A DNA stretch of 64,000 bases from Terriglobus albidus (GTDB lineage: Bacteria; Acidobacteriota; Terriglobia; Terriglobales; Acidobacteriaceae), in the NCBI RefSeq assembly GCF_025685425.1, contig NZ_JAGTAS010000049.1, positions 124,001 through 188,000 of the forward strand, given 5' to 3'. The translations under genes were made by a program, and so were the position numbers. Positions within the stretch are counted from its first letter, which is position 1. Each line of letters opens with the position of its first letter. This document shows, piece after piece, positions 2,767-63,970 of the stretch. Below the pieces are notes generated by a model. The model saw only the letters and a list, made by a program, of their open reading frames with translations, made no database searches and was not told where the DNA came from.

Positions 2767-3585
2767 ATGTCATCGAATCCGAAGATGAAAAACCAGGAAC
2801 AGAAGAAACCGCTGGCGCTGGTGACTGGCGCCAGTAGCGGCATTGGATGGGAGCTGGCGCAAGTACTCGCCACGCATGGCTACGATCTGGTCCTGGTAGC
2901 CCGGCGCGAAGAACGGCTTGGGGAACTCGCAGAAACGCTGGCGCGGAAATACGGCGCCGCCACACAGGTGCTGGCCATCGATCTCTCGCAGCCGGGAGCA
3001 GCCGCACAGATCGAAGCAGAGCTCACGGTGCGCGAGGCGGAGATCGATGTGCTGGTAAATAATGCGGGCTTCAGTCAGCACGGACCGGTCACACAGCTTC
3101 GGGTCGAGCAGCTGCATGCGATCGTGCAGGTCAACATCATAGCGCTGATGGAGCTGACGCGATTGATCGCGCCATCCATGATGGCGCGTCACCGCGGACG
3201 CATTCTGAATGTGAGTTCTGTTGTAGGCTTTACGCCAACTCCGTTTGCAACCGTGTATGCGGCGACAAAGGCCTTTGTGCTGAGCTTCAGCGAAGGGCTG
3301 GCAGAGGAGCTGGAGGGTACCGGTATCACCGTCACTGCTTTTTGTCCGGGAACCACGAAGACGGAGTTCGCGGAGACTGCCGGCATGACGAAGACGATCG
3401 CCTTCCGCAGCGGGGCTATGTCCGCGAAAGAAGTTGCTGAGATTGGCTATGCCGGCATGATGCGCGGCGAGCGTGTCGTTATCTCCGGACGGATGAACTG
3501 GTGGATGGTCTTTGGGGTCCGGTTTGCACCAAGAAGGTTGGTGGCGAGGATTGCGAAGAGAATCATGAAACCGGAAAAAAGTTAA
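2767..3585 (+). CDS. Short-chain dehydrogenase/reductase (SDR), DltE/YqjQ-like
   Basis: Classical NAD(P)-dependent SDR of 272 residues with a Rossmann fold. Seen: TGASSGIG nucleotide-binding motif at about residues 19-26, NNAG near 98, a catalytic Ser in the NVSSVVG segment, and the YAATK active-site motif. The arginine-rich segment after strand 2 (VARREERL) suggests NADP preference. The substrate is unknown; similar proteins are broad-specificity oxidoreductases. A GTG in frame at 2746 is an alternative start, but ATG 2767 gives the family-like N-terminus. The start is 10 nt after the restored stop of the TRIC gene, so the two were probably co-transcribed. The stop codon TAA is the first unit of a heptamer repeat. 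Confidence 0.88.
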   Translation: MSSNPKMKNQEQKKPLALVTGASSGIGWELAQVLATHGYDLVLVARREERLGELAETLARKYGAATQVLAIDLSQPGAAAQIEAELTVREAEIDVLVNNAGFSQHGPVTQLRVEQLHAIVQVNIIALMELTRLIAPSMMARHRGRILNVSSVVGFTPTPFATVYAATKAFVLSFSEGLAEELEGTGITVTAFCPGTTKTEFAETAGMTKTIAFRSGAMSAKEVAEIGYAGMMRGERVVISGRMNWWMVFGVRFAPRRLVARIAKRIMKPEKS

Positions 3586-3688: not shown

Positions 3689-6677
3689 CTAGAACGTGAA
3701 GGCGAAGCCCATGGTGGCGCGCTGTTGGAAGAACATGCTGTCGGGTGGGCCGTTGAGGACGAGGACTTCGTAACCGTCCGGAAGGGTATCGGGAAGGAAG
3801 CTTTCGTAGGAGTCGCGGATGATGCGGGGATTGCGGGACCAGGTCTCGCGCCAGTCCATGCGCATGGTAAAGCGAGGCGTCACGCGGTACTTGATGCCGG
3901 CGCCGTACTGAAGTCCGGGCTGAAAGATGCCGCCGCCGTCGAGTGGAGGGGTGTTGCCGAAGTCGAAGGCGGCTTTGAACAGTCCGAGGTTCTTAAGGCC
4001 CAGCGTGTAGTACGAAGACGGTCGCTTCAACGGAGCATCCGCCAGTGCGATCAACTGCAGCACAGGACCGGCAGCAACATAAGGACGCCAGCGTGAGCTC
4101 GGCGGACGGAAATGCACCAGCGAGTTGTACTCGAACTGACGTGTTGTCAGGCCTACGGTTGCGGTGGCCTGGTTGAAATCCGAATCACTGATCGGTGTGT
4201 CTCCCGCGGGGATGGTGATCGCGAAGGCGCCTAGACGGTATTTGCCCTGCTGACGGAAGTAGCTGAACTCGTTTGAGACCCATTTCCAGGTGTTCACCGT
4301 GACCGAGAAACCTGCTGTCCAGCCATCACCAACCTCATCGGCAAGGCCTGCGATGTAAAGCGGATCGGTGTCTTTGCCGGGAACCAGAAGCACAATATCG
4401 GCTTCCAGGCTTTCATTCCGGAAGCGGGTGTAGCCTCCGTGGAACGCGATCTCATACTTTGGCGGAGCCCAGCGGTTGCGGAGAAGCGAGGTGTCGCGCT
4501 CCATGATCTGTTTTGCAGGATGGCTTTGCGGGCGACCGATGTTGTCGGAGCTCTCTTCATCGCTCACATCGGAGGCCTCCGTCCGATACCAGGTTCCGAG
4601 GTTCGCGGGGGCATCGTGCTCTGAGAAGAGAGTGAACCCTTTGCGGCTGTAGTCGATGCCCTGGTAGATGAGATTGCTGCGGTAGAGCTGGCTCCGCAGC
4701 GTAAGCATGGTGTTGCGCACACTGCGCTCGAACTTGTTAGGTCGCGGAGCAGATGTTGGCGCCGTGATGACCGGTGCGGTGCAATCGTTCAGACGAAGCA
4801 CGGCAACCTCACCATCGGTACGCAGACGGTCGCCGGTGGAGTTGTAGGCATCACGCGGAACCCAGGGACGGGGCACCATCTGCAGCGCATCAACACAGCG
4901 GGTAAAGATGAGATCGTTGACCACCTTATCGCGTTCATTGTCGATGTACTGATCGATGACGTGAATGAAGGTACGCTTCTTGCGCGAAAACGCGATGCCG
5001 GTGTCTTGCGTTGCCGAGGCGGTGAGCACAGCCTTTCCATCAAAGGTCTTACCGGTCGTGAAGACACGCAGGTGATGCCGTGCGTTGAAGGTATTGGTGG
5101 TCTTGGTCAGCGTGGTGAGGGGCTCTTGATGATCGAGCAGCAGTGTCGACATGGGAGCTTCGTTGTAGGTCTGGGTGCCACTGATGCTGCGCAGTGTGGA
5201 GAAGGTCGAGGCGGCGGTGAGCGAGTCGGCCGTGACCCACCCGGAGGCTGCAAAGGCGCGCTTGAGAGCATCCGGCGAACCGAGAAAGACGATGCTGGTG
5301 AGATCCGAGGGATGATCGCCAACCTGAGTTGTCGTACGGAAGGGAAGCGTCTGCAGGAAGGACGGGAGCTCTGCCTGAAGCGAGGTGACCTCGCGTGCTG
5401 TGGTGCGGGGATAGGTTGTCGCGGTAAGCAGCGGCAGGTTGAGTGCGCCGATCATCTCGGTGCCGGAAGGGTAGAGGATCTCGCTTTCGGCAAAGCCAAG
5501 CACAGCGATGGAGTCGGCAGTGAGAGCGACGTAAGCAATCGGGTCCACCTGTGCGAGACCGGTGATCTGGCCTTCGGCAGAGTGACCGAGCGTGGCGGTG
5601 GCTCGCTGCCCCTTGATGGTTCCGGCGGTATCGACGGTTTCGCGTGCGTTCTCTACCTGCACGACGCGCACATCGACGGGAAGAGTGGGACCGCTGGGAA
5701 CCTGCGCCTGCTCGAAGTGGAGTGTGACGGCGGCAGACTCATGTCCGAAGCCGTAGTGCACGCCGCGCACTTTCACAATATGTCCAGTGAAGCGGGTGTT
5801 CTGAGGAAGATAGATGTGGCCGTCGACGACGGCGGGAAGAATGAGAGCAGCCTCTACCGGCTTTCCAGCTTTGTCTGTGCGCGAGTTCAAAGGCTGCAGC
5901 AGGCGAAGCGTGAGTCGCGTCTCGGCAGGGACGCCGCTCTGTTGCTGAAGTGAGGAACGCAGGATGGTGTCGGTGCGCGAACCGGAGTGAACAAAGAGAT
6001 CTTCGCCATCCGTAAGCCATGTGGCTGACTCGGGCTTGAAGCCATGTGGCTGACTCGGGCTTGCCGTTGCGAACTACTACAGCGCGTCCATCAGGAAGAA
6101 GCTGCAGGGTCTCGCTACTTGTGAGGAAGATCCGGTGAAACAGATCTTCACCAAGAGCGATGCGCCGCGGAATCTCCTTCACGGTACTGCTACCCGCAGG
6201 AATGTAGCGGAAGGTGTCGCCAGTCAGGGTAGGACGCGTTGCCCCAATCAGACGCATGTGAATCGCAGTGGCGTCTGCGAGGTAGACCGCCGGTTGACCG
6301 TTCTGAATGCCTTTGAGCAGGAAGACAGAGGGCTCGCCACCGTTCTGCACTTCGAGGAACTCGGGGCTGTCGAGGGAAAGATCGCCAAGCGTGTGGCGTT
6401 CGCCCGAATCGAGATCGAAGATACGGAGCTGTAGCTGCGGATGCCCTTTCTCGGGCGGCGCGACGACGATGACCGAATGCGCCTGCTCGGCCAGCCAGGC
6501 ATGTGTGGCGCGTCGGGTGATGAGCTGTGGCTTGGGTTTGCCGTTGATGTGCGCTACCGCGCTTCCGAAGCTATGGCCGGGCTTGATGAGGACGTCGACG
6601 GAGCTTGCCGTCGGCTGTTGCGCGGTAAGTGAGCAGGCAAAGGCAGAAAGAATAAGAGCTGCATTGGGACGGATCAT
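3689..6677 (-). pseudogene. Large secreted protein with C-terminal outer-membrane beta-barrel, broken by a 25-bp tandem duplication
   Basis: Two adjoining frames on the minus strand are one gene. The 5' part starts at ATG 6677 with a signal peptide (MIRPNAALILSAFACSLTAQ) and reads about 200 residues of soluble, probably beta-rich sequence. The 3' part continues to 3689 and ends in an outer-membrane-protein-like domain of about 220 residues with a terminal phenylalanine (MGFAFTF). The frames are joined if one copy of the perfect 25-bp direct repeat at 6014-6063 is removed: the sequence then reads KPESATWLTDGEDLFVHSGS without a stop. Total length minus 25 is exactly 988 codons (987 residues). 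As it stands the protein ends early, out of frame. Function unknown; a surface or export role is inferred only from the signal peptide and barrel. Confidence 0.85.
6014..6063. repeat. Perfect 25-bp tandem duplication inside a CDS
   Basis: Copy 1 is 6014-6038 and copy 2 is 6039-6063; each begins AAGCCATGTGGC and ends CTCGGGCTTG, with no mismatch. 25 is not a multiple of three, so the duplication shifts the frame of the large surface protein gene. A back-to-back perfect repeat of this size can be lost or gained by slippage or recombination. Confidence 0.97.
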
Positions 6678-6734
6678 CGGGGGTGGTACCAATGTAACCC
6701 GACTTATGTTTGCAGGGCGACAGTTTGGGCAGAG

Positions 6735-19838: not shown

Positions 19839-19953
19839 AGAGCATTTTCCCTGTTGCTGGGTATCCCGTAAGGGCCGTGCAGCGGCGTTTTCATTGCGGA
19901 AAACGCCCATAGATGCGGATGCTCTGGACTACACCTACAGGGAAAATGCTCTA
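19839..19953. repeat. 115-bp MITE-like element (copy 1)
   Basis: Begins AGAGCATTTTCCCTGT and ends ACAGGGAAAATGCTCT, i.e. perfect 16-bp inverted ends, with an inner hairpin GGCGTTTTCATTGCGGAAAACGCC. Another 115-bp copy in reverse orientation lies at 46517-46631, a decayed copy at 63855-63970 and a fragment at 28216-28272. The right end supplies the stop codon (TAG, minus strand 19953-19951) of the adjoining gene. No coding capacity. Confidence 0.85.
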
Positions 19954-20382
19954 GCGCAGAGCTATCGACGTTGTACTGCTTGTCCCACAAGCTCTGGCGT
20001 CGGAACGTCCGTGCTCATGTCCTTGAACCAGTTCGCTGGACATACCTGTTCCCGGAATCCGCACTTCGCTTAAGACGCTGCGACCGCCGCATTCTAAAAA
20101 GACGAGTTGTCCATGAGCTTCGCCGAGTTGTTGCCGGCCGGGACGCATCGCCAGCAGGCTGCGGTGGCCGGTCTTCACATCCACAAGCAACAACGAGAAA
20201 GTTCCGGAGGCCTGCTCGACGGTATAGACGCCGGCTGCCATGTCCTGCCCTCCGGCGGTGAACGCGAATGGGATATGAACGGTGATGCCGGAGTTGTACT
20301 GCGCTTCCAGCGTGATTGATGCGACGCTGCCAATCAGAAGCAGCAGCAGCGCTTGATATGCAATCGATGTGATTCGCCTCAT
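19951..20382 (-). CDS. Secreted protein of unknown function in Cpx-like cluster
   Basis: 143 residues with a signal peptide (MRRITSIAYQALLLLLIGSV...) and a compact beta-rich mature part (ITVHIPFAFTAGGQDMAAGVYTVE read in part; FLECGGRSVLSEVRIPG). Short secreted proteins of this pattern (PFAF.AGG....AG.Y) are common in Acidobacteriota but have no known role. ATG 20382 is supported by GAGGAAAACC just upstream. The C-terminus STTSIALR ends at a TAG provided by the end of a 115-bp repeat element, so the natural C-terminus may have been altered. Divergent from the response regulator, sharing its CpxR-box-like array. Confidence 0.7.
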   Translation of the reverse strand: MRRITSIAYQALLLLLIGSVASITLEAQYNSGITVHIPFAFTAGGQDMAAGVYTVEQASGTFSLLLVDVKTGHRSLLAMRPGRQQLGEAHGQLVFLECGGRSVLSEVRIPGTGMSSELVQGHEHGRSDARACGTSSTTSIALR

Positions 20383-45481: not shown

Positions 45482-46519
45482 ATGAATTCAGAGCAGAACC
45501 TGCCCGAGGCAACGACGCCTCAGGGCCCTCCACCTGTAAGTTCCGAAAACGGACAAGCCACTGCACCGGGTCAGGGCACATCGCGTAGCAGCCGTCGCCG
45601 CCGCCGCCGCCGTAAAAACAAGCCTACCGATGCCGCGGCTTCCCCTGAGGGTCAGATTGTGATCCAGAGCGGGGAAGACAGCGACTTTGTGCCCCAGCCC
45701 AAGACGCAGCAGGCCGGCACCCAGCCACAGCAGGGACAACAGAATAGTGCCAGCGCCAAACGCTGGAAGAAGAAGCAACGTCGCCGCGAACGCCAGCGTA
45801 CCGACGGTGGTGGCTACAGCCCCGGTAACCAGATCGAGCCCGGAAACAGCGTCAACGGTGGCGGATTCGGCCGCCGCAAGCAGAAGACAAAGGGTCCGCG
45901 CAGCTTTGTGGGACCGATGGACCACAGCTATCGCGAGGCAAACGGTAACTACGCCGAAGTCTCGCCGTCGACGATGGAGATGAACGGCAACGTCCGCGGC
46001 GGGCATGGCGGACACAGCAAGCAGCGCCGTAACTATGACTTCGAAGGTGGCAATGTCGATCGTCTGCCGCCCGAGCTGCGTGCCCCGGTCAGTAACGCGG
46101 TGATCCGCGAAGATGCTCCCACACACATCTACTTCTTCGTGGACGACCTGTTCCTGACGGCGAAGATCAACGAGGCCGCGCGCAAGCTGGGCGTGAAGGT
46201 CTGCTTCCTGAAGAACGATCCCGAGCAGTTGGCGCAATTGTTCTCCGGCGAGGAGCGCACCAAGCCATCGCTGATCGTCTTCGACTTGAATAGCACGAGT
46301 GTGAAGCCGCTGACGCTGGTGCCGAAGATCCGCACCAAGCTCAAGCGTACGGTCTCGATTCTTGGCTTCCTGTCGGTGCTGCAGGGTGACCTTAAGGCCA
46401 AAGCCACTGAGGCGGGATGTGATACGGTCATGCCGAAGGCGGCGTTCAGCCAGAATCTACCGAACCTGCTACGCCGCTACGGCGCAGAGGACGAGGAAGA
46501 ACCAAACTTCAATCAGTAG
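45482..46519 (+). CDS. Receiver-domain protein with Arg-rich disordered N-terminus
   Basis: 345 residues. About residues 1-195 are low-complexity, with basic clusters (SRSSRRRRRRRKNKP, KRWKKKQRRRERQR, GGFGRRKQKTKG) typical of nucleic-acid-binding tails. Residues about 215-335 look like a response-regulator receiver fold: FFVDD acidic pair, phospho-acceptor Asp in SLIVFDLNS, and Lys in DTVMPKAAF; the usual Thr/Ser strand reads SILGFLS. The order (disordered basic part first) and fusion are unusual. It may link a phosphorylation or ligand signal to RNA. The stop codon TAG is the first three bases of a 115-bp repeat element. Confidence 0.7.
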   Translation: MNSEQNLPEATTPQGPPPVSSENGQATAPGQGTSRSSRRRRRRRKNKPTDAAASPEGQIVIQSGEDSDFVPQPKTQQAGTQPQQGQQNSASAKRWKKKQRRRERQRTDGGGYSPGNQIEPGNSVNGGGFGRRKQKTKGPRSFVGPMDHSYREANGNYAEVSPSTMEMNGNVRGGHGGHSKQRRNYDFEGGNVDRLPPELRAPVSNAVIREDAPTHIYFFVDDLFLTAKINEAARKLGVKVCFLKNDPEQLAQLFSGEERTKPSLIVFDLNSTSVKPLTLVPKIRTKLKRTVSILGFLSVLQGDLKAKATEAGCDTVMPKAAFSQNLPNLLRRYGAEDEEEPNFNQ

Positions 46520-46631
46520 AAGCATTTTCCCTGTAGGTGTAGTCCAGAGCATTCGGATTATGGGCGTTTTCCGCAATGAAAACGCCGCTTCACGCCCCTT
46601 CCGGGGTACCAGCAACAGGGAAAGTGCTCTA
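46517..46631. repeat. 115-bp MITE-like element (copy 2)
   Basis: Reverse-orientation copy of the 19839-19953 element, same length, ends AGAAGCATTTTCCCTGT / ACAGGGAAAGTGCTCT (one or two mismatches in the arms), inner GGCGTTTTCCGCAATGAAAACGCC hairpin. Its first TAG is the stop codon of the receiver-domain gene. The 329-bp gap up to the GGDEF gene otherwise holds only the terminator below. Confidence 0.85.
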
Positions 46632-46654
46632 ACGTCCAGGTGGTGGACATGCTG

Positions 46655-63745: not shown

Positions 63746-63854
63746 GAGGGTTTTACCTAGCCTTATTTCGGCTGATACGAGCCAGACCGGAGGAGAAAAG
63801 CCGGTCCCAGGGAGTCACCGCTGCGCGGCAACTGGTTTGCAGGATCAGTGCGTT

Positions 63855-63970
63855 TAGAGCATTTTCCCTGCTGCCGGGTATCCAGGAAGGGGCGTGCAGT
63901 GGCGTTTTCATTGCGGAAAACGCTCATAAATGAGGATGCTATGGACTACACCTACAAGGAATAAGCTCTA
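63855..63970. repeat. MITE-like element (decayed copy 3)
   Basis: Left end TAGAGCATTTTCCCTG intact, right end decayed (ACAAGGAATAAGCTCTA), inner GGCGTTTTCATTGCGGAAAACGC hairpin split by substitutions. Same orientation as the 19.8 kb copy. The flanking 63746-63854 and 63971-64000 show no gene. Confidence 0.75.

Follow-up and report, generated by a model that had tools for sequence, protein, structure and literature searches.

The broken gene and its repeat

The window analysed here, meaning the whole stretch of DNA, is 64,000 nucleotides of the Terriglobus albidus genome, which is available as a 6.10-Mb draft of 58 contigs. As listed below, a gene on the minus strand of the window runs from an ATG at 6677 to a stop codon at 3689-3691, but in two frames. 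Two perfect 25-bp copies lie in tandem at 6014-6063 inside this gene. The sequence is in frame with the ATG as far as the repeat, the open frame downstream is 6013-3689, and the extra copy puts the gene out of frame once 213 residues have been read.

6039..6677, minus strand: intact 5' part of the gene, with ATG 6677, a putative signal peptide (by eye), an all-beta N-terminal domain and 213 authentic residues (translation, match to G002, AlphaFold, weak propeller-type PDB matches)
6039..6063, minus strand: the 25-bp copy that is read first in the direction of the gene, still in the original frame (Tandem Repeats Finder, perfect-tandem scan, sequence)
6014..6038, minus strand: second 25-bp copy, adjoining the first; single copy in G002 and G017 (Tandem Repeats Finder, alignment to relatives)
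5739..6038, minus strand: out-of-frame tail past the shift; the predicted truncated product, 312 aa from ATG 6677, ends at 5739 (ORF list, arithmetic)
3689..6013, minus strand: 3' part, which is read in the second frame and is open throughout, with 774 codons and a stop (ORF list, translation)
4808..5338, minus strand: LssY_C domain, PF14067 (Pfam, E 5.1e-40; the genome scan gives the same position)
3692..4456, minus strand: putative C-terminal outer-membrane beta-barrel, ending in Phe (long strands in the AlphaFold model, PDB matches, Pfam OMP_b-brl below its cut-off)

The gene spans 2989 bases including the stop codon. Subtraction of 25 bases leaves 2964, which is 988 codons, or 987 residues and a stop. 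The original prediction had stated that the frames join to 988 codons when one copy is removed, and this is upheld by the coordinate arithmetic as well as by the one-copy ortholog of G002, which has 987 aa from its first ATG. The ORF list gives the upstream frame as 5739-6692 with 317 aa from a TTG, and the 312 aa from ATG 6677 follow by coordinate arithmetic. In the downstream frame, no evident start with an export signal was seen by eye, and the first listed start is a TTG at 5890. Since such a start is not evident, loss of the protein naturally suggests itself.

The two identical copies back to back, which had been described from the letters alone, were found again by Tandem Repeats Finder (6014-6063, period 25, 2.0 copies, 100% match, score 100), which lists 18 rows for the window, the runner-up scoring 64. 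In a scan for units of 10-300 bp, 6014-6063 is the sole perfect tandem repeat in the window. Order-2 Markov versions of the window, five in number and scanned for units up to 60 bp, together contained a single 10-bp unit and a single 11-bp unit. Thus, a chance origin of the repeat is ruled out by the Tandem Repeats Finder score and by the perfect-repeat scan against the Markov versions. The copies have no further common bases beyond their outer edges; ACGG is present on both flanks of the repeat and absent between the copies. The 25-bp unit has short inverted ends (AAGCC/GGCTT). Folding of 81 bases at the repeat with DNA parameters gave a z of -1.6, and 14 of 200 shuffles were as good. Since this fold is not remarkable, a hairpin was rejected as the cause of the duplication.

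The LssY_C domain was detected by Pfam with 137.5 bits against a cut-off of 25, while OMP_b-brl remained at 18.7 bits, under its cut-off of 28.7. The N-terminal piece has no Pfam match, and neither the N-terminal nor the C-terminal piece has a match in NCBIfam. In the AlphaFold model of the C-terminal piece (mean pLDDT 78.0, 37 sequences), long strands begin at residue 520 and continue to the end; the protein closes with the residues MGFAFTF. The best Foldseek match of the barrel region is a porin subunit belonging to a secretion machine of Legionella (E 1.7e-6), and further matches are OmpA, OprG, and OmpW (E 2e-5 to 1.2e-4). The PDB matches of the barrel have target-normalised TM-scores of roughly 0.3-0.7 and an rmsd of about 8 to 21 Angstrom, which supports a predicted membership in the class of C-terminal barrels and, the rmsd being large, no closer relationship. 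The model, the PDB matches, and the terminal Phe speak for an outer-membrane barrel, whereas the Pfam score below the cut-off and a pLDDT under 50 at residues 660-693 of the C-terminal piece speak against it. The exported protein with a C-terminal outer-membrane barrel that had been proposed can therefore be retained as a putative one, with a signal peptide recognised by eye.

The N-terminal piece of 221 residues gave an AlphaFold model (mean pLDDT 79.2, 14 sequences) with 18 strands, which is all beta except for one short helix. Its PDB matches are weak (best E 3.3e-4, TM-scores under 0.5). They are mostly designed propellers, NirN, WD-repeat, and TolB, names that I take to denote the propeller fold class, and the immunity protein Tsi1 is also among them. 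The source genome encodes one other LssY_C protein elsewhere, about 30% identical over the common part.

Orthologs and constraint past the break

Is the second copy present in the relatives? A survey of 101 genomes, the source genome included, was performed with the C-terminal part as the query. This part was matched in 50 of the 101 genomes (again with the source genome), many matches being weak and confined to the LssY_C region, and the alignment search gave 76 loci. The nearest ortholog is found in the same genus, in G002, with 95% amino acid identity over the C-terminal part; the ortholog of G017 has 83%. Both orthologs, which are the two aligned at the DNA level across the repeat site, have one 25-bp copy and one open frame, of 1061 codons in G002 and 1011 codons in G017 from stop to stop. 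Thus, a repeat common to the nearest relatives is ruled out, and on the sequences compared the duplication is private to the source genome among the genomes examined. A blastn comparison of the window with 160 kb of G002 revealed synteny across most of the window. At 3690-6732, the identity is 87.5% and the 25-base gap is the single gap. Close relatives have an intact ortholog, while one disabling lesion is found here. The claim that the gene has no other damage is supported by this comparison with G002, in which it has no other indel. A look at close relatives had been suggested as a check, and it turned out that they do not all carry the duplication.

The number of full-length relatives, defined as rows in which 650 or more of the 774 C-terminal residues are covered, is 49, corresponding to about 44 distinct loci because five contigs, to judge by their lengths, came in twice via two collections. 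The N-terminal domain was detected in 18 of these 49 rows (17 distinct) and is in frame with the rest in 17 of the 18 (16 distinct). The exception, L046, is from a metagenome-assembled genome, and its frame changes at another place, around residues 203-213 of the C-terminal query. Within the genus, the N-terminal domain was matched in 3 of 19 genomes, the source genome included. Its residues 1-213 are matched at 86% in G002, compared with 95% for the C-terminal part, so that this domain diverges faster than the rest. The window protein is similar to the LssY_C (PF14067) proteins of Acidobacteriota in having LssY_C well over the cut-off, a predicted C-terminal barrel, and orthologs in the same genus and family. 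It differs in the all-beta N-terminal domain, which only part of the relatives have, and in the broken state of its gene. The coding parts of the 49 full-length relatives were scanned for perfect tandem duplications with units of 10-199 bp, in L046 over its longer piece, and none was found.

Substitutions were counted on the branches leading to the window and to G002, with G017 as the outgroup. Past the break, the window branch has 75 synonymous and 17 nonsynonymous changes and the G002 branch has 87 and 19 (Fisher p = 1), and thus there is no excess amino-acid change on the window branch. In a simple likelihood treatment, the unconstrained fraction of the window branch was estimated at 0.3%, with an upper bound of 5.3% (one-sided) or 6.3% (two-sided). 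Since the constraint past the break is normal, the gene can have been broken for no more than about 6% of the window branch, and an old pseudogene is ruled out. Before the break, where numbers are small, the window branch has 20 synonymous and 16 nonsynonymous changes and the G002 branch has 19 and 9. Here amino-acid change is somewhat greater on the window branch than on that of G002, which the frameshift does not explain. The very recent event of the original prediction is well supported by the kept constraint and by the intact one-copy ortholog of 987 aa in G002. In short, these counts fit a young break, an unreal one or one that is often reversed, and the intact constraint suits an artefact or a switch equally well.

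Other lesions, other repeats, and a possible assembly error

A second gene of the window, at 2113-2753 on the plus strand, which I take from its sequence to be UPF0126/TRIC-like, lacks 1 base at 2622 compared with G002 and has a +1/-1 pair at 2555/2579. Its last 46 residues or so are in another frame. This is a second private frameshift within 4 kb, and thus private breaks are not unique to the LssY_C gene. When 63 frames of G002 with at least 120 codons were compared with the window, 44 were matched over at least 90% of their length, 9 were matched partly, and 10 were not matched at all. Among the 9 partial matches, the LssY_C gene and the UPF0126-like gene were judged to be the two that are truly broken. 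Of the others, two seem to differ in their starts according to the DNA alignment, one is cut by the window edge, and the remaining four have differing starts or doubtful frames by eye.

Outside the window, 60 further stretches of the source genome (961,933 bases, of which 11,025 are N) contain 16 other perfect tandem repeats, the units being 10-114 bp long. None of the 16 was seen to break a gene, 10 of them having been looked at for frames open across the repeat; such duplications are therefore not shown to be a common lesion here. In G002, no perfect tandem repeat was found in 400 kb. However, the sample is weighted towards contig starts, with 49 of the 60 stretches (8 of these all N) starting at base 1. 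Since this favours repeats, the rates in the two genomes (16 in 962 kb and 0 in 400 kb) cannot be fairly compared.

Repeats of other kinds were also observed. A 7-base unit (AGTTGAA and variants) forms tandem arrays at 3577, 6733, 8778, 13257, 15608, 18723, 25943, and 28131 of the window. The ortholog in G002 has AACTGGC units over 141 bases upstream of its ATG, the only array found among the relatives scanned. It is possibly a length-variable array of the promoter region and perhaps a better contingency candidate than the 25-mer. A dispersed element of about 115 bp, which looks REP/MITE-like by eye, is present at 19839-19956, 46514-46632, and 63846-63970, and several copies of it exist in G002. 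A 114-bp tandem unit lies at the end of contig C42 of the source genome (L170), and another stretch (L139), which has words like those of the 115-bp element, holds a 22-bp triple repeat.

The second 25-bp copy may have been produced in the assembly, either by the joining of contig ends with an uncollapsed 25-base overlap or by a graph error that doubled the sequence, and the real gene would then be intact. The draft state of the genome, with its 58 contigs, is compatible with such an error. A perfect repeat that has no further bases in common with its flanks has the look of an uncollapsed overlap, constraint past the break is not relaxed, and the privately frameshifted gene 3.4 kb away, with three 1-base differences in 70 bases, may hint at local sequence error. 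On the other hand, none of the perfect tandem pairs found in the 60 further stretches (962 kb, 11 kb N) has a 25-bp unit, so that no systematic overlap length is seen, and there are no N runs within the window or inside the readable stretches. I regard an assembly error as the main rival explanation, although a rather unlikely one.

Possible switching, possible frame restoration, and probable recent loss

Phase variation, by which the second copy would be gained and lost at an appreciable rate and the outer-membrane protein turned on and off, was the central proposal of the original prediction. A unit not divisible by three within a coding region resembles the coding tandem repeats of contingency loci in surface-protein genes, since a change in copy number alters the frame. 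The perfect match of the copies, a product that the model and the PDB matches make a surface protein, and the intact constraint are all compatible with it. However, the locus differs from contingency loci in having two copies only, of a 25-bp unit, private to one genome among those examined. The copy number does not vary at the same site in the relatives compared there, as G002 and G017 both have one copy, no perfect coding tandem duplication of at least 10 bp recurs in the 49 relatives, and the family is intact in 17 of 18 rows. In addition, no flanking homology is visible that would drive one copy to two. The proposed on/off switch is thus not substantiated; switching is a candidate only, and an improbable one.

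In PMC12817950, the copy number of long-unit repeats was found by deep sequencing to differ within a strain, and part of the structural differences was put down to errors in an older reference. Phase variation and reference error are also the two alternatives for the 25-bp repeat. The repeats there are in promoters and have within-population evidence; the present one is a coding two-copy repeat. In the open-licence PMC literature, searches for a like reversible frameshifting duplication in bacteria led to papers on phase variation in general and on deletion between repeats, otherwise to nothing to the point, and its absence from print is not claimed.

The second copy could be lost precisely at a low rate, as with any short tandem duplication, although nothing shows that the organism uses such loss. 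In a metastable version of the lesion, rare cells would lose the second copy precisely and regain the outer-membrane protein, and the strain would be mixed, its mostly OFF state having been selected under the conditions of isolation. I give this version only a slim chance.

Might the gene still work by restoration of the frame in expression? Ribosomes could bypass 25 nt, or the transcript could slip, between the identical copies. With the same codon context recurring 25 bases further on, the sites of take-off and landing would be matched, and the persisting constraint also fits. Against this, the local fold (81 bases, z -1.6) is unremarkable, and neither of the two nearest orthologs contains a repeat that would need bypassing. 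I know of no case of a 25-nt bypass or of slippage between such copies, and this explanation is hardly credible.

On balance, and with the sequence as the basis, the repeat is probably a very recent private duplication of 25 bp, a real mutation whose frameshift is null in effect. The duplication would put the gene of the LssY_C-domain outer-membrane protein out of frame. Its product would end at about 312 residues, of which 213 are authentic, and the LssY_C and barrel parts, for which no separate start with an export signal is evident, would not be made as a mature protein. The mutation may have arisen recently, in nature or in culture, via an accident of replication or end joining. Simple slippage between flanking microhomologies does not fit, since there are no extra common bases at the edges and ACGG is not at the junction; because ACGG is on both sides but not between the copies, a microhomology-mediated duplication is unsupported. 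The papers found in open-licence PMC on this process deal with fungi and with human or mammalian cells. Fill-in and end joining of a staggered break would fit the duplication. Taken alone, the 25-bp duplication gives no pointer to a new mechanism.

Should the second copy be an artefact, a pseudogene read from this draft would be false, which is a warning. If it is real, the locus would represent a clean, age-bounded loss of a surface-protein gene in a soil acidobacterium via a potentially reversible lesion.
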